Source of the DNA: Clostridia bacterium
GTDB taxonomy: Bacteria; Bacillota; Clostridia; Acetivibrionales; STF1-152
DNA length: 64,000 bases
Assembly (NCBI GenBank): GCA_028280575.1
Contig: JANQLN010000092.1
Coordinates: 16,812 to 80,811 of the forward strand
Direction: 5' to 3'
Every line of letters begins with the position of its first letter. Within the stretch, counting starts at the first letter, position 1. The notes below the pieces were generated by a model, which saw only the letters and a list, made by a program, of their open reading frames with translations, searched no databases and had not been told where the DNA came from. Positions 34,234-48,927 of this stretch are shown here, piece by piece. Made by a program: the position numbers and the translations under genes.

Positions 34234-35595
34234 ATGGTTGTAAAAAATCAGGAATACATACTGGACATAAAAGGAATGACCCACGAAGGTTTGGGGGTCG
34301 GCAAGGTAAATGATTTTGCAGTATTTGTAAAGGATGCTATTGCCGGTGAAACCGTAAAAACAAAAATATTAGCGGTAAAAAAAAGCTATGCCATTGGAAG
34401 GCTTGAGGAAATCATCAGGAAATCTTCAGCACGCATACAGTCGTTTTGTCCGGTTTTTAAAAGATGTGGAGGATGTACATTCCAGCACGTAGACTACAAT
34501 AAGCAGCTGGAGTTCAAAGAAAATCAAGTAAGGGAAAATATTGTTCGAATTGGGGGATTGGACAGCGCAAAAATTTATCCTGTAATCGGTATGGCAAATC
34601 CCAAATCCTATAGAAACAAGGCCCAGTACCCTGTAGGACAAAATCCTCAAGGCCCTGTCATGGGATTTTATGCCCCGCGCAGCCATGAAATAATAGATAC
34701 GCCTCATTGCGGTATACAGCATGACCTCAGCGAAAAGGTTAAAAAAATTGCAATGGAGTTTATAAGGAAGTTCAATATAAGTATTTATGATGAAAAAACA
34801 GGCAGGGGTCTTTTAAGGCATGTAGTAATAAAAGTTGGATTTAATACGGGTGAAGTTATGGTTTTGCTGGTGGTTAACGGGGAGGAAATGCCATATTCCG
34901 TGTATCTTCTGGAAAGCTTAAAGCTCCATGTTGCAGGTTTGAAAAGTGTAATACTTAATATTAACAATAAAAAGACCAATGTAATACTGGGCAAAGAGAA
35001 TAAGGTACTGTATGGCAGAAATTATATCTTTGATATACTGGACAAATACACTTTTAAAATTTCACACCTGTCATTTTATCAGGTCAATCCCGTGCAGACC
35101 AAAATATTATATGGCAAGGCAGTTGAATATGCTTCCCTTACCGGTCACGAGACTGTACTTGATATATATTGCGGTATTGGAACAATATCCGTATTCATGT
35201 CCGGAAAAGCATACAGGGTATATGGCATAGAAGAAGTACCGGAAGCCATAGAGGATGCAAGGCAGAATGCCAAGCTTAATAAAATTGCCAATACAAAATT
35301 TATTTGCGGCAAAGGGGAAGAAGTACTTCCCACGCTGGTCGAACAGGGTATAAAAGCGGATGTGATAATTATGGACCCACCTCGAAAAGGATGCGATAAA
35401 AAAGTACTTGAGGCTGCTGCAATGGCAAAGCCCAAAAGAATCGTATATATATCCTGCAACCCGGCAACACTGGCAAGAGACTTGAAAATTCTTTCTGAGC
35501 TGGGATACAGCATTAATAAAGTACAGCCATTGGATATGTTCCCCTATACCACGCACGTTGAGTGCGTGGTATTGATGTCACTTAAAGATAAATGA
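34234..35595 (+). CDS. rlmD: 23S rRNA (uracil-C5)-methyltransferase, RlmD/RumA type
   Basis: A 453-residue iron-sulfur methyltransferase. An N-terminal TRAM domain (MTHEGLGVGKVNDF...) is followed by the [4Fe-4S] Cys set C72, C78, C81 (FCPVFKRCGGC) and C159. The SAM-binding motif is DIYCGIGT (310-317), DPPRKG (381-386) binds substrate, and C408 in YISCNPATLA is the catalytic nucleophile. It methylates a uracil of 23S rRNA; the exact position (U747 or U1939) is not resolved by sequence in Firmicutes, where one enzyme may do both. GGAAGAGAG precedes the ATG. It is the last host-like gene before the accessory island. Confidence 0.93.
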   Translation: MVVKNQEYILDIKGMTHEGLGVGKVNDFAVFVKDAIAGETVKTKILAVKKSYAIGRLEEIIRKSSARIQSFCPVFKRCGGCTFQHVDYNKQLEFKENQVRENIVRIGGLDSAKIYPVIGMANPKSYRNKAQYPVGQNPQGPVMGFYAPRSHEIIDTPHCGIQHDLSEKVKKIAMEFIRKFNISIYDEKTGRGLLRHVVIKVGFNTGEVMVLLVVNGEEMPYSVYLLESLKLHVAGLKSVILNINNKKTNVILGKENKVLYGRNYIFDILDKYTFKISHLSFYQVNPVQTKILYGKAVEYASLTGHETVLDIYCGIGTISVFMSGKAYRVYGIEEVPEAIEDARQNAKLNKIANTKFICGKGEEVLPTLVEQGIKADVIIMDPPRKGCDKKVLEAAAMAKPKRIVYISCNPATLARDLKILSELGYSINKVQPLDMFPYTTHVECVVLMSLKDK

Positions 35596-35842: not shown

Positions 35843-36469
35843 TTATATTCCTAAATCTTTACGACCAACATGCTGCTGGAGTATCATGCGCATACGTTTT
35901 ACCATATAATTGACAGTCGTTTGTGGCTTGCCAATTAGCTCGGCTATTGTGTGCTGAGATTTCCCATCATAGAGCATCTCAAAAATGCTTGCTAAATCTG
36001 GTGCTTGCTGATGTAGCTTTTCGAGAAGGTCTTCAAAGAGCATTGCAGCTAGGATTACTTCGCACTGATTAGCGTCGGGGTCCTCGAATTCAAGTTCTGT
36101 TTCCTCGAAGAAATATTCAAGAGAAAGAGGAGCTCCGTCCTTCATATTCTTGCAGTTCTTACAGTCCAATTCACAACGTTTGAGCTTCCCGCTACCATCA
36201 CTAACCGTGCAGCGGCGGCTACGCTCCTCACGCTTTATTTCCGCCCATAGGGGTCGCATGTACGCATCGTATTGTTCTTTGGTCGCCGGAATCATGATAG
36301 CGGATACAATTTTGTTTCCGATTTTTGCTGGCACTACTTGCGAACTATCTAAGTTGAAATCTTTGATTGTTTCTACGGTGACTTCCAATGGGATTAAGTG
36401 CTTTTGATTGATGTTGCAGTCGTCAATACATATTTTTTTGCACACCTTGTCCTTGCTTTCTTTTTCCAT
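35843..36469 (-). CDS. Sigma-70 region 4-like HTH protein (island regulator)
   Basis: A 208-residue protein. The C-terminal about 70 residues (LLEKLHQQAPDLASIFEMLYDGKSQHTIAELIGKPQTTVNYMVKRM) look like sigma-70 region 4 HTH. The middle part carries paired cysteines (C88, C99, C103, C106) in RCTVSDGSG...CELDCKNCKNM, suggesting a metal site. Related proteins occur on conjugative and defence elements of Firmicutes. GGAGG lies 7 bases before the ATG. It is divergent from the NACHT gene, and its intergenic region has two copies of GAATTAATAG. It most likely controls the island; this is inference. Confidence 0.65.
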   Translation of the reverse strand: MEKESKDKVCKKICIDDCNINQKHLIPLEVTVETIKDFNLDSSQVVPAKIGNKIVSAIMIPATKEQYDAYMRPLWAEIKREERSRRCTVSDGSGKLKRCELDCKNCKNMKDGAPLSLEYFFEETELEFEDPDANQCEVILAAMLFEDLLEKLHQQAPDLASIFEMLYDGKSQHTIAELIGKPQTTVNYMVKRMRMILQQHVGRKDLGI

Positions 36470-36514
36470 TTCATTTCCTCCTTGTTTGACATTTGTGAAG
36501 CTCCGTGTTAAGAT

Positions 36515-36537
36515 GAATTAATAGGAATTAATAGGAA
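36515..36537. repeat. Tandem 10-bp repeat in the divergent regulatory region
   Basis: GAATTAATAG occurs twice in tandem (36515-36534) and is followed by GAA. The 10-bp period equals one helical turn, so both copies face the same side of DNA; it is a candidate regulator-binding site. Confidence 0.5.
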
Positions 36538-36559
36538 CTGCTTTTATTTCAAAATAAAA

Positions 36560-36590
36560 AAGCTGATACCAGAACTCCTGACATCAGCTT
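36560..36590. other. Stem-loop upstream of the NACHT gene
   Basis: AAGCTGAT (36560-36567) pairs with ATCAGCTT (36583-36590) around a 15-base loop, flanked by A-rich and T-rich sequence on the two sides. It could attenuate the NACHT transcript or end the divergent one. Confidence 0.5.
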
Positions 36591-36686
36591 ATTTCTAAAG
36601 GGATTTGCGTCGAAATTGAGCAGAATATACTTCTCATTTGCAGTGAGTTGCATCCACTTGCTTATGAGTTGCAAGGGAGTAAAACT

Positions 36687-39527
36687 ATGACAAAACTTTG
36701 TTTTGGGACATTTTCACAGGTTCTCCGTTTGTGCAAATTAGAGAATGTTACAGATCGTATACTTGTTGGGACGATGACACGGACGGTAGACCCAACTTGC
36801 CAATACATACACAAAGACAATGCATCAGCCGTTTCGCGACTGTTTAGTTGTACTGGGAATCTTTCGAATGGAAATATTACAGACAGTGGAAGTGCTGCAG
36901 TAAAGAAACCTGGGGAAAGTATCAGCAATGTTGTTAATGCTTCCCAGAAAGCCAATAAAGAGGATGTAGTTCAAGAGTTCCGTAAAAATGTGATTCCTTT
37001 ATTAGATGAAGACAAAAAAGAGCTGATCGTTCTCGCGCTGCTTGATATTATTGAAAAAGATGATGTCCTTGATGATGACAAGAAACTAAGCTTTGAAAAA
37101 TATATTGGACAAACAAAAAACGCCCTGCTTTCACAGGGCGATTTTGCGTTGGATGAATTTTTAGCTGGTATCTTTCTTTATACTGTTGCGGCTGGAGTGA
37201 TGAATACTGTAGGGAAGGGACCCGTGAAGCAAATAACTCCTGACTATATAAATGGGTTAAAGAATACAAAAAGAGTTAATGTCGTTGACCAAGCTACTAG
37301 AGAACTTGAAGTTCCTTCAGATATAAAAGTGCCTGGAGAAACCTATCTTGCCAAGTCACATAATTCTTTTGATCAGCAAGTTGATGACTTAGAAAATACA
37401 ATGCAACTTATAGTAGATAGTTTAGGTAAGAGTGCTACGAGAAAAATTAACAAAGATGATTGGGAATCTTTTTATAACGCTCTTTTTGAAACTGTCCGTT
37501 TAGGACGGTTACAAAGTAATGCCACGGGAGAGTTAAAAACCTTTATTGATAACATCACAAGTCTCTATAAAGATTGGGAAGAGGTTATGATAAGAAGTCG
37601 TTCAAATCTATCTGTTGATAATGCCAGTGATGTATTTGGCAAAATAGTAAAAGAAGTGGACTGTTATATTACATTTAGAGGGATTCTAGTGAGTTCAGAA
37701 TCTGACTCACCTCAAGAAGTGACTAAACAAAACTTTAAAGCGTACCTTCAAAGTGCGAAAGATAAATATAGCTCTATTAAGACATTACTTTATAACGACC
37801 AGCCTAAGCCTTTTTATGATTTCTACGTGTGCAATGATATTGAACGACGAATTCCTGTACATGGAAGATTCGGTACATCATACAAGTTGTCTACAATAGG
37901 AAATGTAACAATTAATAGTCTTTCAAAATGCTCTCGTTTTGTAATTCTTGCAGGAACGGGCGGACTTGGTAAATCGATGATGATGCGGCACCTGTTGTTA
38001 AATTCCGTGGATAATTATGAAGAGATGCATATGATCCCTGTTTTCATACCACTCAAAGATTTTGATGAGATGTTTGACACTTTATTTGACTACGCTTATT
38101 CAAAGGTTACGAGCCTTAGCAGTGAAATCACAGAGGATCAATTTGATGAAGCATTGAATAAAGGTAAGTGTTTGTTGTTATTTGACGGATTAGATGAAAT
38201 AGGGTCATCAAGTGCAAAGCGATTTGAACGTGATTTGGAATACTTTACCGACATGTATCCTAACAATTTTTTTGTGATTTCTTCACGCCCCTATCAGTCC
38301 TTTGTTTCATATTCGCGGTTTACTGTTCTGCAATTGAAACCTTTTTCAAAGAAGCAGGCTTTAATGCTGGTTGATAACTTAGAATTCAGGCCTGATGAAC
38401 CAATTATTAAAGAAAAGTTTCGAACGGAATTGGACAATAACTTACATCGAACTCATAGAGCATTTATTGAAAATCCACTTTTGTTAACTATTATGTTGAT
38501 TACATTTGAGCAGTATGCAGAGGTGCCTTCAAAAATGCATGTGTTTTATAGAGAGGCATTCGGTGCTTTAGCCGTAAAACATGATGCTAGTAAAGGTGCC
38601 TATAAACGAATATTAAAGACTGGATTAAGTGCAGATAGATTTGCTGATTATTTCGCTGAAATCTGTTCACGTTCATATCATGACGAGAAATTTGAGTTAA
38701 CAGAGGAGGAGTTTGCGAAATACTACTATGTTTTAAAAGAGAGAGAAAAGTCAGGTGATAGTACTACTATTGCAAGTGATTATGTGTATGATCTATGCTC
38801 CAACATGTGCCTGATGTATTTTGAAAGTGGGAAATATCATTTTACACACAGATCCTTTCAAGAGTATTTTTGTGCACTATATTTCTCAAAACAAAAGGAC
38901 AAGACGCTAGAAAGTATCGGGAACTTTTTTGAAAATAGGCGTAGTCGTATGTTTGGAGATAAGACTTTCAACATGCTTTACGATATGATCCCTGATAAAG
39001 TGGAAGAATATATATTTCTCCCTTTTTTAACTAAGCTTTATGAAGAATGTGATCGTGAAGAGGGTTACTGGACATTCCTAGAAAAGCTGTATCCTACTCT
39101 GAGATATGAAAATGGGGAAACAGATGAATATGTATCTAATTCATCGGAATCTTACTTGTTTGATTTCATTCAACAAATTAATCGTCTATGGTTTCTAAGA
39201 TGTGAAAATTTTCCACATTACGATTCCATAGTTTCAAATGAGTATGTCTATGTGATAGATGAAAACGAGAGCGAAACCCTCGTTAATGCTGAAGATGTGG
39301 ATTCGGATTATAAGTATGAATACGGAGATCCTAATGTAGTCGGTTGGGTATATGAGATTGATGTTGAAGAAGTACGTAGAAATCCATTGGAATACTCAGA
39401 ACTAATAAATCGCCTAGATGATGATGAGTTTGATGCTAAGAAATGCTATGTGCAGATGAGAGAATATCTTAGAGAACTTCAGGTAAAGCAAAGGCCAACC
39501 GGTGATAGTCTCTTTGATTTGTTTTAG
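36687..39527 (+). CDS. NACHT domain NTPase (STAND), probable antiphage protein
   Basis: A 946-residue protein. The ATG at 36687 is behind AAGGGAG with 7 bases spacing; the longer frame from TTG at 36648 is less likely. The N-terminal about 420 residues hold a Cys-containing block (TKLCFGTFSQVLRLCKLENV, then SRLFSCTGNLSNG) unlike known effectors that I recognise. The NACHT domain starts at about residue 416 with Walker A GTGGLGKS (423-430) and Walker B LLLFDGLDEIG (F499-E504), followed by SSRPY. The C-terminal half contains a helical HRSFQEYFCALYF block and an acidic tail, but no LRR, TPR or WD repeats visible. NACHT proteins of this size act as pattern-recognition antiphage effectors (Avs-like); whether this one does is inference. 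Confidence 0.85.
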   Translation: MTKLCFGTFSQVLRLCKLENVTDRILVGTMTRTVDPTCQYIHKDNASAVSRLFSCTGNLSNGNITDSGSAAVKKPGESISNVVNASQKANKEDVVQEFRKNVIPLLDEDKKELIVLALLDIIEKDDVLDDDKKLSFEKYIGQTKNALLSQGDFALDEFLAGIFLYTVAAGVMNTVGKGPVKQITPDYINGLKNTKRVNVVDQATRELEVPSDIKVPGETYLAKSHNSFDQQVDDLENTMQLIVDSLGKSATRKINKDDWESFYNALFETVRLGRLQSNATGELKTFIDNITSLYKDWEEVMIRSRSNLSVDNASDVFGKIVKEVDCYITFRGILVSSESDSPQEVTKQNFKAYLQSAKDKYSSIKTLLYNDQPKPFYDFYVCNDIERRIPVHGRFGTSYKLSTIGNVTINSLSKCSRFVILAGTGGLGKSMMMRHLLLNSVDNYEEMHMIPVFIPLKDFDEMFDTLFDYAYSKVTSLSSEITEDQFDEALNKGKCLLLFDGLDEIGSSSAKRFERDLEYFTDMYPNNFFVISSRPYQSFVSYSRFTVLQLKPFSKKQALMLVDNLEFRPDEPIIKEKFRTELDNNLHRTHRAFIENPLLLTIMLITFEQYAEVPSKMHVFYREAFGALAVKHDASKGAYKRILKTGLSADRFADYFAEICSRSYHDEKFELTEEEFAKYYYVLKEREKSGDSTTIASDYVYDLCSNMCLMYFESGKYHFTHRSFQEYFCALYFSKQKDKTLESIGNFFENRRSRMFGDKTFNMLYDMIPDKVEEYIFLPFLTKLYEECDREEGYWTFLEKLYPTLRYENGETDEYVSNSSESYLFDFIQQINRLWFLRCENFPHYDSIVSNEYVYVIDENESETLVNAEDVDSDYKYEYGDPNVVGWVYEIDVEEVRRNPLEYSELINRLDDDEFDAKKCYVQMREYLRELQVKQRPTGDSLFDLF

Positions 39528-39636
39528 AATTGCTATGATCCATAAGAGAGAACAGAACTAATTACTAAAATCTCAGAAATACTAGGAAGTGAGCATTTAT
39601 GAAATTACTTGGTTATTCTAATAGGAGGAACGAAAA

Positions 39637-39828
39637 ATGACGAATGAACCTGAAAGATGGTCAAGCCTTGAAAAAATTGCTGAACATCTCGGTGTAAGCA
39701 AGGATACAATCCGAAGTTGGATTAAAAAAGAGGCCATTCCGTATAAGAAGATAGGTAGACAATACAAATTCAAAATATCTGAAGTAGACGCTTGGGTGGA
39801 GAGTGGAAAAAGTGCGGAGATTGAGTAA
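39637..39828 (+). CDS. Excisionase-like HTH protein
   Basis: A 63-residue protein with a winged-helix/MerR-like DNA-binding domain of the excisionase (HTH_17) type: SLEKIAEHLGVSKDTIRSWIKKEAIPYKKIGRQYKFKISEVDAWV. AGGAGG precedes the ATG by 7 bases. It is the first gene of the helicase-DUF4391-Mod-Res run, 35 bases before the SNF2 gene. In type III-like defence loci such proteins occur as regulators or as remnants of mobile elements; no integrase is seen within this island. Confidence 0.85.
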   Translation: MTNEPERWSSLEKIAEHLGVSKDTIRSWIKKEAIPYKKIGRQYKFKISEVDAWVESGKSAEIE

Positions 39829-39863
39829 AGATATGTAAATCCGCATAGATAAGGGGGAAAGAT

Positions 39864-42800
39864 ATGCAAGTTCTCGATAATGTGAATAAAACAGTCAAGG
39901 ATGATCTGGCCAAAACGGTTTCAAAGGGGGATAAAATTTCAATAGCTGCTGCTTGTTTTTCGATATATGCTTATGAAACTTTAAAAAAGCAATTGGACAA
40001 CGTCGAAGAGCTGCGTTTTGTATTCACATCCCCTACATTTCTACAAGAGAAAGCTTCGAGAGAAAAACGGGAATTCTATATTCCGCAGCTTAATCGAGAG
40101 CGTTCTTTGTATGGAACTGAATTTGAAGTAAAGCTACGAAATGAATTGAATCAAAAGGCAATTGCTAAGGAATGTGCTGAGTGGATCAAAAAGAAAGTCT
40201 GCTTTCGTTCTAATGTTACTGGTGGGTCGATAGGAAGCTTTCTGAGCGTAGTCAAGCCAGACGAATCCATAGCTTATTCTCCACTAATCTCATTTACCAC
40301 TGCAGATTTGGGGTGTGAACGCGGCAACAATATAATTAGCCTTGTCAATCGTATAGATGCACCCCTTGCTGATGAATATATAAAAATATTTGATCAGATT
40401 TGGAATGACAAGAATCTTTTACAGGATGTTACGGACCAGGTAATTGATGGCATCACTGCTGCTTATAATGAAAACTCTCCTGAGTTTGTATATTTTGTAG
40501 CAATTTACAATATTTTTAATGAATTTCTATCTGATATCAGTGAGGACGTGTTACCTAACGAAGCTACTGGATTTAAAGAATCCAAGATTTGGGGGAAACT
40601 CTATGATTTTCAACAGGATGCTACGCTTGCAATCATTAACAAGTTGGAAAATTTTAATGGCTGTATTCTTGCGGACAGCGTTGGTTTAGGTAAAACTTTT
40701 ACAGCGCTTGCTGTTATCAAATATTACGAACTGAGAAATCGAAATGTACTTGTATTATGCCCCAAGAAGCTGGGAGATAACTGGCTGACATTTAAAGAGA
40801 ACTATCTCAATAATCCTATTGCAGCAGATCGATTGAGATATGATGTTCTCTATCACACCGACTTGTCGCGCGAACGTGGAAAATCAGGGAACATTGATCT
40901 GGCTAAAATAAATTGGAGTAATTACGATCTAGTTGTTATTGATGAAAGTCATAATTTCCGTAATGGTGGTGATTATTCAGGGCGTGGCGAAAATAAACGT
41001 GAAAACCGTTATCTGCAATTATTAAATAAAGTAATCAGACAGGGCGTAAAAACCAAAGTGCTTATGCTTTCGGCAACGCCTGTAAATAATGGTTTTTTTG
41101 ACTTAAGACATCAGCTTGAATTAGCATACGAAGGCGATCCTTCACTTATAAATGACAAGCTGGACACTGCAAAGCCAATTGATGTTATATTCCGAGGTGC
41201 ACAAACAGCATTCAATAAATGGAGTAAACTGGACCCCGAAGAACGAACCACACAAAATCTCTTACGGTCACTTGATTTTGATTTCTTTACAATGCTTGAT
41301 AGTGTTACAATAGCTCGTTCAAGAAAGCATATAGAACAATATTATAATATCGAAGCGATAGGGAAATTCCCTGAACGGCTTAAACCACTTGCGCTACGTC
41401 CAAAGCTTACTGATTTATTAAATGCAATTGATTACGATGAAATCTACGATTTATTAATGAAGCTTAATCTTGCTGTGTACATACCGACTGACTTTTTGCT
41501 TGATAGTAAAAGATATAAGTACATTGATTCAAACGTAAACATTGATCGTGCAGGGCGTGAAATAGGGATTCGCAGGTTGATGTCTATTAATCTCTTAAAA
41601 AGGCTTGAGAGTTCAGTTGTTTCTTTTCGTATTACACTTGATCGTGTTCGGGATATTATAAATGGAACCATTGAAGCTATTGATGCATATGAAAAGGGAA
41701 ATAGAAAAATCCTAAATACTCAAGAAATCGTAGAAACTGACTTTGACGGAGATGACCGAAATACCACTTTCTTTGGAAATAATACTAAGAAGATTGATAT
41801 TGATGTAGGGGATATGGACTATGTTACATGGCGGGAAAAGCTATCAGAGGATTCTGAAATACTGCAACTCATATCATCTATGATTCATGACATTACCCCG
41901 GATCATGATACCAAATTACAAACTCTTATTGATTTGATTGCTGAAAAGATTCAGAATCCTTTTAATGATGGAAATAAAAAAGTGCTTATTTTTTCAGCAT
42001 TCTCTGATACGGTAGATTATTTATATGCTGGGGTAGCACCAATTATTGAAGAACGATTTGGACTCCATACAGCAATGATCACAGGAACAACTCAGGGAAG
42101 AACCACTGTGAAGCTTCCACGTAAGGACATGAATACAATCCTTACGCTGTTTTCACCTCGGTCCAAAGACAAAGAGCTATTGATGCCGAACAAACCAGTA
42201 GAAATAGATATTTTAATTGCGACGGATTGTATATCCGAGGGTCAAAACCTGCAGGATTGTGACTATTGTGTGAACTATGATATTCACTGGAATCCTGTTC
42301 GAATTATTCAGCGTTTTGGGCGTGTTGACCGTATTGGCAGTCAAAATGAGACAATCCAGCTTGTGAATTTCTGGCCAAATATTGGACTGGATAAATATCT
42401 TGAGTTAAAAGGCCGTGTAGAAACACGTATGAAAGCCTCTGTTATGACTTCCACAGGTGATGATAATCCCATTGATTCAGATGAACTGGGGGATTTGGAA
42501 TATCGTAAAATGCAGCTAGAGCGGCTTCAGAATGAGGTTGTAGATATTGAGGATATGCAGAATGGTGTTTCCATAATGGATCTAGGTTTAAATGAGTTTA
42601 GGCTGGATCTTCTCGATTATGTTAAGACGCATGATAATCTGGACAAAGTACCTTTTGGACTTCACGCAGTAGTGAATGGAAATGAGAGCGCACCAAAAGG
42701 TACAATTTTTATCCTGAAAAATATAAACACGAATATAGACCACCATAATAAAAACCAACTCCATCCATTCTATATGGTATATGTACGGGATGGTTCTGTA

Positions 42801-43094
42801 GTTCATATTGACCATCTGCAACCGAAAAAGCTTCTTGATGTTTTTAGACAGCTATGTAAGGGAAAATCAGAACCACTGCTTGACCTTTGCAAACAGTTCA
42901 ATGATGAAACGAAAGATGGAAGAAATATGAGACATTATTCAGACCTTTTATATTTTGCTGTCAAAGCAATTGTGGATCTCAATGAAGATGATTCTATCGA
43001 TAGCTTCCTATCCGGCAAGCAGATATCCTTAGCAGAGAATACAATTGATGGGTTGGATGATTTCGAATTGGTCTGCTTTGTGAATGTGAGGTGA
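39864..43094 (+). CDS. SNF2/SF2 helicase with N-terminal extension
   Basis: A 1076-residue cytoplasmic SF2 helicase. An N-terminal about 240-residue region (SIAAACFSIYAYETLKKQLD...) resembles the phospholipase D-like domain seen in this helicase family, but I find no HKD motif, so it is probably non-catalytic. The helicase core has motif I ADSVGLGKT (270-278), DESH (360-363), LSATPVNN, and in the second RecA domain SEGQNLQDCDYCVNYD and QRFGRVDRIGS. All ATPase motifs look intact. The C-terminal region (from about 860) is of unknown function. A stop-to-start gap of 10 bases leads into DUF4391. Arginine codons are mostly CGN, unlike flanking genes. Confidence 0.88.
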   Translation: MQVLDNVNKTVKDDLAKTVSKGDKISIAAACFSIYAYETLKKQLDNVEELRFVFTSPTFLQEKASREKREFYIPQLNRERSLYGTEFEVKLRNELNQKAIAKECAEWIKKKVCFRSNVTGGSIGSFLSVVKPDESIAYSPLISFTTADLGCERGNNIISLVNRIDAPLADEYIKIFDQIWNDKNLLQDVTDQVIDGITAAYNENSPEFVYFVAIYNIFNEFLSDISEDVLPNEATGFKESKIWGKLYDFQQDATLAIINKLENFNGCILADSVGLGKTFTALAVIKYYELRNRNVLVLCPKKLGDNWLTFKENYLNNPIAADRLRYDVLYHTDLSRERGKSGNIDLAKINWSNYDLVVIDESHNFRNGGDYSGRGENKRENRYLQLLNKVIRQGVKTKVLMLSATPVNNGFFDLRHQLELAYEGDPSLINDKLDTAKPIDVIFRGAQTAFNKWSKLDPEERTTQNLLRSLDFDFFTMLDSVTIARSRKHIEQYYNIEAIGKFPERLKPLALRPKLTDLLNAIDYDEIYDLLMKLNLAVYIPTDFLLDSKRYKYIDSNVNIDRAGREIGIRRLMSINLLKRLESSVVSFRITLDRVRDIINGTIEAIDAYEKGNRKILNTQEIVETDFDGDDRNTTFFGNNTKKIDIDVGDMDYVTWREKLSEDSEILQLISSMIHDITPDHDTKLQTLIDLIAEKIQNPFNDGNKKVLIFSAFSDTVDYLYAGVAPIIEERFGLHTAMITGTTQGRTTVKLPRKDMNTILTLFSPRSKDKELLMPNKPVEIDILIATDCISEGQNLQDCDYCVNYDIHWNPVRIIQRFGRVDRIGSQNETIQLVNFWPNIGLDKYLELKGRVETRMKASVMTSTGDDNPIDSDELGDLEYRKMQLERLQNEVVDIEDMQNGVSIMDLGLNEFRLDLLDYVKTHDNLDKVPFGLHAVVNGNESAPKGTIFILKNINTNIDHHNKNQLHPFYMVYVRDGSVVHIDHLQPKKLLDVFRQLCKGKSEPLLDLCKQFNDETKDGRNMRHYSDLLYFAVKAIVDLNEDDSIDSFLSGKQISLAENTIDGLDDFELVCFVNVR

Positions 43095-43104
43095 GGGAAG
43101 GACA

Positions 43105-43713
43105 ATGTTTGGACTACCTAAATCTACTAAAATAAGTAAGCAATTACCCAAGAAAGCAATATTTCAGAAGTTTAAACCAAGCACCGCTGATAGAAAATTA
43201 TTTGATGAGCAAATAAACCGTCTTTCAATCGTTTCGGAGATATCTCCACAAACGGTCAGTATAGCAGCTAGTGAAGAAGTTACAGCAATTTATATTATTT
43301 TGGTTCAGATGAAGACGGTGGAGTGTGATAAAAAGAACATCAAACTACTATCAAAGCTCATAGACCAGAATATGCTCTTTGCTTTGCAATATGAAGACAC
43401 TGTAAAGTTTGCTGTATTTTTTGCAGATAGAGTGTTGATGTCTGAAAGTAAACCTATTAGCGAGTGGGTTCTCAAATTAAAAGGTCTTGATCTAGAAGCC
43501 ACATGGGATATGCTCATTGCTGATATTTGTGGAATTGAATCTACAGATGGTAAAGACATAGATGAAATCATTATTCATAATGCATTGAAAGAGAAACTTA
43601 AGAAACAAATTGCTAGACTTGAAAAAAAAGCTATGAATGAAAGGCAGCCTAGACGTAAATGGGATCTGGCTGAACAAATAAAACAGTTGAAAGAAGAACT
43701 AAAAGGAGTGTAA
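43105..43713 (+). CDS. DUF4391 family protein
   Basis: A 202-residue protein recognisable as DUF4391 from its start (MFGLPKSTKISKQLPKKAIFQKF) and middle blocks (NMLFALQYEDTVKFAVF). The C-terminus is a basic coiled coil (LKKQIARLEKKAMNERQPRRKWDLAEQIKQLKEELKG). Its function is unknown. It always appears in my experience next to a SNF2-like helicase and type III Mod/Res genes, which is the arrangement here, so it is probably a structural or DNA-binding subunit of that assembly. Its TAA stop overlaps the ATG of Mod (TAATG), which indicates translational coupling. Confidence 0.8.
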   Translation: MFGLPKSTKISKQLPKKAIFQKFKPSTADRKLFDEQINRLSIVSEISPQTVSIAASEEVTAIYIILVQMKTVECDKKNIKLLSKLIDQNMLFALQYEDTVKFAVFFADRVLMSESKPISEWVLKLKGLDLEATWDMLIADICGIESTDGKDIDEIIIHNALKEKLKKQIARLEKKAMNERQPRRKWDLAEQIKQLKEELKGV

Positions 43714-45647
43714 TGATGGATAAACAAGAGAGATTAACAATGCATACATCGAATCTTGCAGACAATAATTTTAGTGTCCTTGCTAAAATGTTTCCCAATG
43801 CAGTGACAGAGACAATAACAGGTTATGATGAGGATGGCGAGCCTATAGTTGAAAGAGCGATTGATGCAGATGTACTGGCCCAGGAAATAAACACACATGT
43901 AGTTTCAGGGAAAGAAGAGCGCTATCAGTTTACATGGCCGGATAAGAAAAAATCAGTCCTATTGGCAAATGCACCAATAGCTGCTAATTTACGTCCTTGT
44001 CGTGAGGAAAGTGTTGACTTTGATAAGACTGAGAACCTTTATATAGAAGGTGACAATCTTGATGTATTGAAGTTGCTCAGAGAAACATATTTGAATCGAG
44101 TGAAAATGATCTATATAGATCCCCCATATAACACAGGAAAAGATTTTGTTTATGAGGATGATTTTGGTGAAGAAACTGGTCAGTTCCTACGTCGTGATAA
44201 TCAATATGATGAGCAAGGCAATCGTCTAACTTCAAACTTTGACAGCAACGGGCGTTTCCATACTGACTGGCTAAACATGATGTATTCAAGATTGAGAGTT
44301 GCGCGGGATTTGTTAACTGATGATGGTGTAATATTTATTAGTATAGATGATAATGAAGTTGAAAATTTGAAAAAGATATGCAACGAGATGTTTGGGAAAT
44401 CTAATTTTGAAGGACATATTCACTGGCGTAGAAGGCATAACCAGCCAAATGATAAAACTAAAATGATAGGTTTAGTAGCAGAGCATATTCTTGCCTATGC
44501 AAAAAATAGTAGATTTCTTAGAGAAAGTGGTGTAGGGAAAATTGATATTACCGGTGATTTCTCAAATCCTGATAATGACCCACGTGGAGATTGGGCAAGT
44601 AAACCTTAGAAAGTAGGATCGGATCAATCGGGTAGCAGATATATAATTACTACACCAACTGGTATTCAACTAGATGAAGAATGGATGGGAGAAGAAACGA
44701 CATATAAGTCTTTGCTTTCTGATGGTAGAATCATTTTTCCGAGAGGTAGAGATGGCATGCCTCGAAAAAAGTATTATCGATCTGAACGCGAAGAGGAAGG
44801 GCAGTGTGCAACAAATTGGTGGACACATGATATGTTTGGACACAATCAAGGAGCTAATGATTGTATTACAAGTCTTTTTGGTGTGAAAAATGTTTTTAGC
44901 AATCCAAAACCTATAGAACTTATAAGAGGGCTTATTCAAGTAGCTAATGTAAAAGATAATGATATAGTTTTAGATTTTTTCTCTGGTGCGGCAACAACAG
45001 CCCATGCAGTTATGCAAATTAATAATGAAGATAGAAAAAATAGACGCTTTATCATGGTTCAATTACAGGAAAATTTAGATAAAACTATATTATCGGCTGA
45101 TGCTAAAACTAAAAAATCTATAAAAGTGGCCATTGACTTTTTGGACTCGATTAACAAGCCACATTACATTACTGAAATTGGTAAAGAACGTATTCGTCGT
45201 GCTGGAGCGAAAATAAAAGAAGAAATAGGTTTGACAGCACAAAATCTTGATACGGGATTCCGTGTTCTCAAACTAGATAGCAGTAACATGAAAGAAGTTT
45301 ACTACACACCTGAAGAATATTCACAAACGGGTTTCAATTTGGAAGGATTTATGGATAACATTAAATCTGATCGTTCAGATGAAGATTTATTGTTCCAAGT
45401 AATGTTAGATCTTGGCATTCCCCTTTCAGCTAAAATTGAACAGGATGGGAAAATATTTAAAGTTAATGATAACTACCTAATTGCTTGCTTCGATAGAGTT
45501 GATACATCTATGATTACTGAAATTGCTCAAAAACAACCTTATTATGCTGTTTTCAGAGATAGCAGCTTTGTAAACGACAGTTCTCTAGTAAATATTGAAC
45601 AGATTTTCAACACATACAGTTCAAGTACCATAAGGAGGGTAGTGTAA
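43713..45647 (+). pseudogene. Type III methyltransferase (Mod), interrupted by an in-frame TAG
   Basis: A 644-codon beta-type N6-adenine DNA methyltransferase whose reading frame continues on both sides of one TAG codon at 44607-44609 (codon 299). The DPPY catalytic motif (136-139) lies in the first part (43713-44609) and the SAM-binding DFFSGAATT motif (from codon 421) in the second, so neither part alone can methylate. The sequence around the stop reads DPRGDWASKP-stop-KVGSDQSGSRY, and the frame is fully conserved on both sides, so no frameshift is involved. A TGG-to-TAG change at a conserved aromatic position is the likely cause. An internal ATG at 44685 could restart translation but has a poor site. 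Without suppression the system cannot methylate. Confidence 0.85.
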
Positions 45648-48600
45648 ATGAAGTTTAAATTTAAAATACAACCTTTCCAGTCAGAGGCTGCAGAAAGCAT
45701 TGTAAAAGTATTTTCTGGTCAACCAAAACAAGGGTTCTTAAAATATCGTCGAGATATTGGTAAACGAAAAGCTCAGGCTACTATCTATGAACAGGATACT
45801 GAGTTTGTAACAGGTTACCGTAATGCCAATGTAGAGCTAAGCAAAGATCAATTACTCAAAAACATTCGTGTTGTGCAGACAGTTAACAATATAAAGAATT
45901 CCACTGCTTTAGAAAAAGGACTTGGTCTGGTATCACTAGATGTTGAGATGGAAACTGGTACGGGTAAGACATATGTGTATATTAAGACAATGTTTGAGCT
46001 CTATCAGGCGTACGGCTGGAGTAAATTTATTGTTGTTGTGCCAAGCATAGCTATTCGTGAAGGCGTTAAGAAATCATTTGAAATGACTCAAGAACACTTT
46101 ATGGAGCTTTACGGCATGAAGGCTCGGTTCTTTGTGTATAACTCTTCAAACTTACATCAACTAGATGAATATTCACAGAGCTCCGGTATAAATGTAATGA
46201 TCATTAATACGCAAGCCTTCAATACAACGATGAATGAGAAGAAAAATGTTGAAGGCAGATTTGGAAATCAGGCGGCTCGTATCATCTATACCAAACGTGA
46301 CGAGTTTGGGTCACGTAGACCAATTGATGTTATAAAGGCGAATCGCCCGATAATTATTTTAGATGAACCACAAAAGATGGGTGGAACAGCAACCCAGAGT
46401 GCACTAAAGAAGAATTTTAATCCCCTCTTTTCTTTGAATTATTCGGCAACCCATAAAACATCACATAATCTTGTTTATGTTCTTGATGCTCTGGATGCCT
46501 TTAAAAAGAAGCTTGTCAAGAAAATAGAGGTAAAAGGATTTGAACTCAAAAATCTAAGTGGAACCAATAGATATATGTATCTAGCTGCCATTGTCATTGA
46601 TCGCAAGAAGCCACCTCGCGCTCGCTTGGAGTTTGAAGTAAAACGCGGAAGTGGGATTAGACGAGAAATGCAGCTACTGGAAGTTGGCGATAGCTTATAT
46701 ACTTCATCTAAAGGTTTGGAGGAATATAAAGGCATCTCAATTGCCGAAGTCGATCCCATATGTTCGATAGTTACTTTTTCAAATGGAGACACTTTGGAAC
46801 CTGGTGAAGCAAGCGGAAATATAAATGAAGATGATATTCGCCGTATACAAATCCATGAAACAATAGCTTCACATTTTGATAAAGAAGAAAAGTTATTCGA
46901 GCAAGGCATCAAATGTCTTTCTCTGTTCTTTATTGATGAGGTGGCCAAGTATCGTCAGTACGATGAGGATGGCAACGAAATTGTAATTGAATATGGCCGG
47001 ATATTTGAAGAAGAATACACCGCTACTTTAAATGAGCGTTTGACGCTTTTTCCTACTGAATACCAAAAATATCTAAGAGAAATTGAAACTTCAGAAACCC
47101 ATCGGGGCTATTTCTCCATAGATAAAAAAGGTAGAGCGATCAATAGTAAGGTAAAACGTGGAAGCGAGTTTTCAGATGATATTACCGCTTATGATCTCAT
47201 TCTAAAAAACAAGGAGCGATTACTTTCTTTTGAGGAACCCACAAGGTTCATCTTCTCTCACTCTGCTTTGCGAGAAGGCTGGGACAATCCAAATGTGTTT
47301 CAGATATGTACTTTAAAGCATTCCGATAATGCAACTGCAAAAAGACAGGAAGTGGGACGAGGACTGCGTATATGTGTTGATGAAACTGGTGAGAGACAAG
47401 ATGTTGATGCATGTGGAGAAACACTTGTACATGGCTTGAATGTATTAACTGTTGTTGCGAGTGAAAGCTATGCAGGATTCGTAGCTAATTTGCAGAGAGA
47501 AATTAAGTCCGACCTTTATGAGCGACCTACAAAGGCTAGTGTAGATTATTTTACTGGTAAGAATGTTGTGGTTGGGGATGATATGCATTCAATTACTGCA
47601 GCAGAAGCAACTGCTATATATAACTATCTCGTTCGTAATTATTATGTTAATGATAACGGTGGGGTGACCGATACTTATCGAGCCGCAGCTGAATTAGGTA
47701 GTTTTGAGCCGTTAAAGCCAGAGTTAGAGCCTATGGGTGAAAACATCCATAAACTTGTGCAGGCAATATTTGATCCAAGCATACTTAAAGAAATAGCAGG
47801 CAATGCACATGAAACTAAAGTCAAAGAAAATCCATTGAATGAAAACTGGAAGGATTTCAAGGAACTCTGGGAGAGGATCAATAAAAAATACGCTTACATT
47901 GTGGACTTTAGCAGTGAAGAGCTAATTAAAAATTCAATTGAGGTTATCAATAGAGAATTGAGAGTTGCAAAACTAACATACACATTAACCACGGGAGGGC
48001 AAACAGGCATCAATTTTGTTAGAGAACATACTGAAACAAAAAAAATTGATCGTGCACAAGGAAGTTTTACAGAGTATGATCTCATTGGAAAGATTGCTGA
48101 AGCTACAACATTAACACGTCGTTCAGCAACTGTAATCTTATCTGGGCTGGACCAGGACAAAATATGGCTATTTAAAGAGAATCCTGAAGTATTCATTATC
48201 AAAGTAGCTGCAATTATTAATCAACAAAAAGCATCTATAGTTGTAGATCATATCACTTACACACCAAGTGCAGAAGAGCCCTACTCACAAGATATTTTCA
48301 ATATGAGCCGTGCTTCTGATGAGTATGCAAAAGCCTTTAAAGCTAAACACGCCATACAGGATTATGTTTTTACAGATGGAACAGCAGCAGATAGTATCGA
48401 GAGAAGGTTTGCTGAAGACTTGGATAATGCTGATGAAGTAGTCGTTTACGCAAAACTCCCAAAGGGACCACGTGGTTTTTATATCCCTACTCCAGTTGGG
48501 AAATATTCACCAGATTGGGCGATTTCGTTCAAGAAAGGTGCTGTAAAACATATTTTCTTCATAGCGGAAACAAAAGGAACAATGGATAGTCTTCAACTTC

Positions 48601-48725
48601 GTCCGATTGAACAGGCTAAGATTACCTGCGCGAAAAAGTTGTTTAATGAGATCTCCACAAGTGAAGTGAAGTACCACGATATAGATACCTATCAGAATTT
48701 ATTAACGGTTATAGATTCATTATAG
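45648..48725 (+). CDS. Type III restriction subunit (Res), helicase-endonuclease
   Basis: A 1025-residue protein that would form the cleavage subunit with Mod. It has SF2 motif I METGTGKT (E102-T108), a DEPQ Walker B (239-242), SATHK, and motif VI QEVGRGLRI. The C-terminal PD-(D/E)XK nuclease is visible as SPDWA (D956) and AETKG (E974, K976). The start codon directly follows the Mod stop (TAAATG), so expression is coupled to Mod. Helicase and nuclease motifs look complete. Type III Res needs Mod for site recognition, so a broken Mod would make it inactive but not toxic. Confidence 0.9.
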   Translation: MKFKFKIQPFQSEAAESIVKVFSGQPKQGFLKYRRDIGKRKAQATIYEQDTEFVTGYRNANVELSKDQLLKNIRVVQTVNNIKNSTALEKGLGLVSLDVEMETGTGKTYVYIKTMFELYQAYGWSKFIVVVPSIAIREGVKKSFEMTQEHFMELYGMKARFFVYNSSNLHQLDEYSQSSGINVMIINTQAFNTTMNEKKNVEGRFGNQAARIIYTKRDEFGSRRPIDVIKANRPIIILDEPQKMGGTATQSALKKNFNPLFSLNYSATHKTSHNLVYVLDALDAFKKKLVKKIEVKGFELKNLSGTNRYMYLAAIVIDRKKPPRARLEFEVKRGSGIRREMQLLEVGDSLYTSSKGLEEYKGISIAEVDPICSIVTFSNGDTLEPGEASGNINEDDIRRIQIHETIASHFDKEEKLFEQGIKCLSLFFIDEVAKYRQYDEDGNEIVIEYGRIFEEEYTATLNERLTLFPTEYQKYLREIETSETHRGYFSIDKKGRAINSKVKRGSEFSDDITAYDLILKNKERLLSFEEPTRFIFSHSALREGWDNPNVFQICTLKHSDNATAKRQEVGRGLRICVDETGERQDVDACGETLVHGLNVLTVVASESYAGFVANLQREIKSDLYERPTKASVDYFTGKNVVVGDDMHSITAAEATAIYNYLVRNYYVNDNGGVTDTYRAAAELGSFEPLKPELEPMGENIHKLVQAIFDPSILKEIAGNAHETKVKENPLNENWKDFKELWERINKKYAYIVDFSSEELIKNSIEVINRELRVAKLTYTLTTGGQTGINFVREHTETKKIDRAQGSFTEYDLIGKIAEATTLTRRSATVILSGLDQDKIWLFKENPEVFIIKVAAIINQQKASIVVDHITYTPSAEEPYSQDIFNMSRASDEYAKAFKAKHAIQDYVFTDGTAADSIERRFAEDLDNADEVVVYAKLPKGPRGFYIPTPVGKYSPDWAISFKKGAVKHIFFIAETKGTMDSLQLRPIEQAKITCAKKLFNEISTSEVKYHDIDTYQNLLTVIDSL

Positions 48726-48739
48726 TTATGTTAAAAGCT

Positions 48740-48769
48740 CACGGTCCTTTCTGAATTGTCATGACCGTG
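48740..48769 (+). terminator. Terminator of the type III operon
   Basis: CACGGTC (48740-48746) pairs with GACCGTG (48763-48769), followed by GGCTAATAATTTTTA. It lies 15 bases after the Res stop codon. Confidence 0.65.
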
Positions 48770-48819
48770 GGCTAATAATTTTTAAAATAAATAAAGAAGG
48801 CATTGAATTTGGAGGTGTT

Positions 48820-48927
48820 ATGAAAGATATTGAGTTGTTTGATAATGCTAAAAAACTTTATGACATTCTGGTTTTTTTTCTAAGTTCGGTTACTACATTA
48901 TGTACAGCAGCCATTCCCATCCTGTAG
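48820..48927 (+). pseudogene. Truncated ORF at the right edge of the island
   Basis: GGAGG lies 6 bases before an ATG that opens a normal-looking protein start (MKDIELFDNAKKLYDIL), but after about 17 codons the frame enters the antisense of the dehydrogenase 3' end and stops at 48927. It is best explained as the 5' end of a further island gene cut off at the junction near base 48855. I cannot tell what the full gene was. Confidence 0.55.

Follow-up and report, generated by a model that had tools for sequence, protein, structure and literature searches.

In PrrC-type guards a lethal second layer is set off by attack on restriction, and the same logic is proposed below for a locus in a 64,000-nucleotide stretch of DNA from a Clostridia bacterium (GenBank assembly GCA_028280575.1, contig JANQLN010000092.1; hereafter the window, with positions counted from its first letter). 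In this locus, genes for a NACHT protein, a small helix-turn-helix (HTH) protein, a SNF2 helicase, a DUF4391 protein and the Mod and Res proteins of a type III restriction-modification (RM) system follow one another on the plus strand up to position 48725. The phage anti-restriction-induced system (PARIS) fires on the anti-restriction protein Ocr and needs no RM or bacteriophage exclusion (BREX) partner, and P2/P4 prophages are known to have defence hotspots in which the cargo is swapped, both according to the consulted parts of PMC9122126. Bacterial NACHT (bNACHT) proteins of clade 14, relatives of animal inflammasome sensors, were previously tested, and the consulted part of PMC12169576 states no trigger for them. 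The cassette in the window is prophage-type defence cargo, which includes its NACHT protein, a bNACHT of clade 14. We give an even chance to the reading that the cassette has two layers under one HTH-controlled promoter, in which restriction would act first and NACHT would bring about shutdown when restriction fails.

Divergent from the run lies a 208-aa sigma-like open reading frame (ORF) (35843..36469, minus strand), whose best match is the phage family phrog_13787 (E 1.4e-21). An extracytoplasmic function (ECF) sigma label was rejected for it, as TIGR02937 scored 25.1 bits, below the cut-off of 42.9. When viral contigs were scanned, SNF2 gave 16 loci and NACHT gave 5, and a large terminase was present on 10 of 18 such contigs. 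Both genes occurred together on L102/L119, L103/L120 and L111/L118, beside a leftward operon reaching a sigma-like gene. In the matching chromosomal locus L004 of Anaerocolumna sedimenticola, where the cassette is intact, Pfam assigned genes of this operon to DNA_pol_A, an ssDNA-binding protein and DUF2800, and L118 further encodes a phage helicase/primase, an exonuclease and an antirepressor-like regulator. Like that of the window, the sigma-like gene of L118 falls in phrog_13787, and in the prophage relatives this gene lies at the cargo-facing end of the replication operon. The sigma-like gene is part of the phage backbone, not a regulator belonging to the system as the earlier note had it.

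The whole arrangement recurs, with Mod intact, beside phage replication genes on a single-contig chromosome of the same phylum (G299). DNA similarity between this chromosome and the window was 82% from 36463, the start codon of the sigma gene, to 48724, the end of Res, and was lost solely in the middle of Mod (44408-45172, save for 133 bases at 71%). Because the similarity is bounded by these positions, the transferable unit runs from NACHT to Res, and because it starts at 36463, the sigma gene of the window comes from a more distant phage. The unit homologous with relatives is accordingly 36463-48724, in place of the island of 35843-48857 given before. Attachment-site (att) repeats of at least 11 bases were sought at the locus and none were found.

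NACHT does not go with type III systems alone; NACHT-HTH forms a modular header of prophages and is found before BREX and type II genes as well. On viral contigs the pair precedes type III, BREX (type 1 and type 3-like) and type II genes, and the follower was methylation-based in 14 of 15 readable cases, three of these judged by SNF2 alone. The HTH gene of the window (39637..39828, plus strand) encodes a 63-aa MAD1-like protein of excisionase type (HTH_17, 52.2 bits; NF047737, 54.9 bits, below the cut-off of 80). In a comparison of 23 HTH proteins, identity to the window protein was 79-87% in seven of 11 type III loci, all six BREX loci and a DpnII cassette, and 81% in the cut locus L144. Lower values of 56-69% came from four type III loci that have no true NACHT (L047, L104, L107, L110), two C5 cases, L129 and L160. 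In the window a 13-codon ORF, possibly a leader, overlaps the HTH start codon (ATGA, 39599-39640); it was not seen in the relatives compared.

By sequence reading, a promoter for the cargo operon is predicted at 36486..36514 on the plus strand (TTGACA - 17 bases - TAAGAT), with a similar layout and spacers of 17-18 in L118, L004 and L122. Overlapping its -10 element is a predicted operator of three tandem 10-bp units (TTAAGATGAA TTAATAGGAA TTAATAGGAA; 36508..36537, plus strand). One helical turn between repeat copies suits an excisionase-type protein such as lambda Xis. The operator pattern was written from the window, L118, L128, L004, L122, L132, L140 and L135, and was tested with and without them. 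Genes on the loci were called mechanically as longest ORFs, with approximate starts. For the operator and HTH counts, L102, L103, L111, L114 and L004 were removed as duplicates of L119, L120, L118 and L163, and eight of 76 loci with too little downstream DNA were left out of the operator counts; kinship was handled only by clustering NACHT at 80% identity, so that deeper relatedness is uncorrected in the statistics that follow.

The window held two overlapping matches to the tandem element where 0.03 were expected. Allowing up to two mismatches, the element was found in 12/19 NACHT loci with the HTH and in 0/43 without it (Fisher 2e-8). These counts became 9/15 and 0/40 after clustering, and 7/14 and 0/43 when the loci from which the pattern was written were left out; including six HTH loci with only an N-terminal-domain gene gave 12/25. 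Within loci having the sigma gene the element was present in 12 of 17 with the HTH and none of six without, and therefore tracks the HTH, not the sigma gene. When the HTH-positive regions were shuffled twenty times by dinucleotides, no match arose, against eight observed, and 72 loci without HTH or NACHT yielded two matches over 1.2 Mb. In each of the six BREX cassettes the stretch from NACHT to HTH holds a copy in the opposite orientation; upstream of NACHT, five of the six have a further, weaker copy with 1-3 mismatches. We infer that the HTH protein, the predicted regulator of the cassette, binds the tandem repeats and, since the first repeat overlaps the -10 element, represses the NACHT promoter. 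One regulator common to NACHT and the type III genes, suggested earlier, is thereby made plausible.

The type III part of the run, SNF2-DUF4391-Mod-Res, is a conserved unit without a name as far as the literature was searched: no paper naming it was found there, and DUF4391 turned up in just one paper, in a table on another subject. The loci counted were the best 80 of 165 genome loci found with SNF2; the counts scored presence only, gene order being taken from a separate locus listing. Downstream of SNF2, DUF4391 was present in 70/70, Mod in 57/57 and all three genes in 45/45 loci with enough DNA. The four genes thus form one unit in the genetic sense, as the earlier note had proposed, and both the 10-base gap between SNF2 and DUF4391 and the TAATG junction of DUF4391 with Mod were confirmed in the sequence. 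ORFs and domains likewise bore out its gene content between rlmD and the sugar-acid genes (sigma-like ORF, divergent NACHT, HTH, SNF2, DUF4391 and Res). In a phylum survey of 398 genomes, SNF2 was detected in 32 (E 1e-100), Res in 49 (E 1e-60) and DUF4391 in 34 (E 1e-5). By hand count from coordinates, Res lay less than 7.1 kb from SNF2 on the same contig in 25 of the 32 SNF2 genomes and on another contig in five, and two were without Res. SNF2-DUF4391 thus seems to be an add-on, seldom found apart from a type III pair.

Tight spacing, the TAATG coupling and the invariable presence of DUF4391 behind SNF2 would also suit a single physical machine made of NACHT, SNF2, DUF4391, Mod and Res. We regard this as very improbable, since NACHT also stands with BREX and type II genes and type III units are mostly without NACHT.

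The SNF2 protein (1076 aa, 39864..43094, plus strand; SNF2/Helicase_C) matched the PADLOC profile C3a139 HKD+Snf2 (E 5.1e-121), by which its N-terminus is typed as HKD. There is no histidine in its residues 1-239, where the HxK catalytic motif of a phospholipase D (PLD, HKD) nuclease is lacking, and PLD nuclease activity is therefore unlikely. Judged from these features, SNF2-DUF4391 probably serves Mod-Res as an accessory DNA translocase and not as a nuclease. DUF4391 (202 aa, 43105..43713, plus strand; PF14335, 105.4 bits) was predicted to fold into an alpha/beta domain with a C-terminal helical hairpin (mean predicted local confidence, pLDDT, 88.7), and this model had no match in the PDB at E 0.001. 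Res (1025 aa, 45648..48725, plus strand; ResIII and RE_endonuc, PF04851 and PF19778) has an EcoP15I-like helicase and a PD-(D/E)XK nuclease (E 1.6e-66 and 228 bits to 4zcf_C), with D956, E974 and K976 each kept in 97% or more of the 58 sequences compared. A terminator-like hairpin follows on the plus strand (48737..48772, inverted repeat GCTCACGGTC / GACCGTGGGC, by sequence reading).

The unit is widespread, and other genes are often inserted in it; some of these belong to known defence families. Among 45 loci, inserted DNA of more than 300 bases was found between DUF4391 and Mod in 27, between Mod and Res in 13 and between SNF2 and DUF4391 in six; 13 had none. Inserted plus-strand ORFs of at least 100 aa numbered 85 in 48 loci and matched 34 Pfam families. 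Among the 25 families listed were RhuM and Schlafen AlbA_2 (six ORFs each), TIR and DUF2971 (three each), AAA_13, SIR2, HerA, YhcG, Abi_C and AbiEii-type AAA (two each), and Fic, HEPN, AbiJ and AbiGi (single matches). SIR2-HerA pairs were seen inside or directly behind the unit in L019 (by PADLOC) and in L035, L042 and L071 (by similarity cluster). In cassettes without a true NACHT, a gene of 765-768 aa was seen between HTH and SNF2 in L107, L110, L113 and L040; it is an AAA_13 ATPase in L110, and the other three were matched by length and place.

Mod, whose break the earlier note had missed, is split in the window by an in-frame TAG at 44607-44609, which ends it after residue 298 (codon 299) of 644. 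Pfam recognised its N6_N4 MTase domain. The N-terminal piece (43713..44609, plus strand) has the DPPY motif and matched type III methyltransferases (MTases) at E 9.1e-117 in PADLOC; the C-terminal piece (44685..45647, plus strand), with the S-adenosylmethionine (AdoMet)-binding region, is in the same frame and matched at E 6.7e-88. Apart from the TAG the frame is open, the next ORF starting at 44685, and it is open in relatives, for example L128. In the 21 best of 72 relatives, identity to the window was 69-82% before the middle, 11-32% in the middle with the stop and 49-59% after it. Because it falls in the variable middle, the TAG is in the likely specificity region. The window thus lacks the intact Mod of a type III RM system. 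No further N6/N4 MTase with the size of a type III enzyme turned up in the genome, a 366-aa MTase ORF close to the end of a contig being left unclassified. Most likely the restriction layer is off in this genome owing to the TAG, and the NACHT layer is possibly on. Isolated in-frame stops in core genes of the unit were all TAG (window 44607-44609, L011:2726, L080:9168, G385, G218 and G224), though in small numbers; the other stops (TGA, TGA, TAA) were all in one frameshifted gene of L007.

The TAG and the want of a second MTase are also what a decaying prophage remnant would present, in which the RM arm of this genome no longer functions and only NACHT, or nothing, works. The sigma-like ORF is the sole phage gene recognised between rlmD and the dehydrogenase gene by ORF listing, Pfam and phrog matching, and DUF2800 was not found in the genome (0/1, with a silent search control and neighbouring ORFs scanned only in part). 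On the other side, the remaining cargo ORFs are open, and a base-calling or assembly error may underlie the TAG. We consider such decay a real possibility, somewhat short of even.

The NACHT protein (946 aa, 36687..39527, plus strand) consists of a helical N-terminal domain (about residues 1-200), a helical linker, an NTPase like that of NOD-like receptors (NLRs) and a SNaCT14 C-terminus (PF22720, 272 bits, cut-off 27). For its start, the ATG at 36687, which AAGGGAG precedes, is more likely than the TTG listed at 36648. Its NACHT and SNaCT14 domains and the lack of a recognised effector place it in clade 14. Hachiman HamA was rejected as an assignment, as only positions 1-170 of the 490-position PADLOC profile matched and no DUF1837 match was found with Pfam at E 0.001. 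The N-terminal helical domain was also seen fused to ABC-3C CTD11 and to NB-ARC-TPR.

In the two-layer reading, the HTH protein would control expression of NACHT and the type III genes through the tandem repeats at the NACHT promoter, as the operator statistics suggest, and restriction by SNF2-DUF4391-Mod-Res would be the first layer. NACHT would sense restriction failure or an anti-restriction protein, and its output as the second layer would be growth arrest, both by analogy with tested clade-14 bNACHT proteins (consulted part of PMC12169576) and with PARIS (consulted part of PMC9122126). Several observations weigh against this reading. With up to two mismatches the element was missing in 7/19 HTH-positive NACHT loci and in the six loci with only an N-terminal-domain gene, and the HTH was present in only 17/68 viral NACHT loci. 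By hand count, 19/49 Res genomes were without SNF2. Pfam detected no effector domain in the NACHT protein at E 0.001, and with a broken Mod the working state of the window copy is not to be assumed. Because PARIS needs no RM or BREX partner, it supports anti-restriction sensing and not guarding, as far as the consulted part of PMC9122126 goes.

A further point on that side is that, of 54 type III loci whose upstream DNA was long enough, only three had NACHT (>200 bits) and 51 did not. NACHT and the type III system as one dedicated system, as first supposed, is not upheld by this count together with the BREX and type II followers; what stands of that view is the conservation of the four-gene unit with or without NACHT and its lack of a name in the literature searched, not a novel joint system. 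The same count favours a possible, though doubtful, reading in which NACHT and type III are tenants of a prophage cargo slot independently of each other, sharing a mobile address and a promoter with no functional link. NACHT-less pairs, AAA_13 and further ATPases are found in the slot as well, and the swapped cargo of the P2/P4 hotspots (PMC9122126, consulted part) is in line with it. Independent tenancy is opposed by the HTH, which is well conserved while the following system changes and is followed by the operator, and by the single functional class, DNA-methylation defence, of nearly all readable followers. Rather unlikely, in our estimate, is a plug-in header in which a NACHT sensor and a conserved HTH under the tandem-repeat operator are placed before whichever methylation-based defence a prophage happens to hold (type III with SNF2-DUF4391, BREX or type II), with NACHT as a guard that would fire when a phage disables that defence, for example by a DNA-mimic anti-restriction protein.

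If, as in the two-layer reading, a clade-14 bNACHT is wired to restriction or BREX by a common regulator, anti-restriction proteins and failed restriction become candidate triggers. The cassette would then be an NLR-based counterpart to anti-restriction sensing by PARIS, and would show how prophages exchange whole defence systems behind one control switch.

The cassette is flanked on the left by rlmD (34234-35595) and on the right by minus-strand dehydrogenase, FGGY-kinase-like and aldolase-like ORFs of sugar-acid type, named from the ORF sequences. An RlmD-like TrmA-family rRNA methyltransferase gene ending no more than 1.5 kb upstream of SNF2 was also seen in 5/54 loci (L007, L041, L051, L052 and L053); rumA/rlmD is known as a site of mobile elements. 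At 48820-48860 an ORF that starts behind GGAGG (ATGAAAGATATTGAG...) continues into the 3' end of the dehydrogenase gene; it may be what is left of a gene cut short at the island's right border. Elsewhere in the window a T-box leader was detected at 2472-2696 (112 bits).

Among known systems, the locus resembles the type III RM system EcoP15I (4zcf) in its Mod-Res pair and in a Res with SF2 helicase and PD-(D/E)XK nuclease, and differs in the constant upstream SNF2 and DUF4391, the inserted genes and, in the window, the interrupted Mod. A small HTH before a methylation system recalls MAD1 of the methylation-associated defence system (MADS), and the SNF2 helicase recalls DrmD of the defence island system associated with restriction-modification (DISARM); membership in both was rejected, with scores below the curated cut-offs (54.9 against 80 bits and 134.2 against 610 bits). 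Clade-14 bNACHT proteins (bNACHT02, 11 and 12), as given in the consulted part of PMC12169576, likewise combine NACHT with SNaCT without a discernible effector domain; the window protein differs in that its gene shares a run with an HTH gene and a system based on methylation, and in an N-terminal domain that matches part of the HamA profile and is fused elsewhere to other partners. As in the P2/P4 hotspots, a prophage slot holds exchanged defence cargo, but here the genome loci with a named host belong to Anaerocolumna, Syntrophomonas and a Bacillota metagenome-assembled genome, and the slot has a NACHT-HTH header with a predicted operator and cargo as large as BREX (compared with the consulted part of PMC9122126). 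The proposed lethal second layer triggered by attack on restriction is shared with PARIS as described in that part of the source; in the cassette, however, an NLR-like sensor would replace AriAB or PrrC, PARIS acts without an RM partner, and the trigger is a proposed one.
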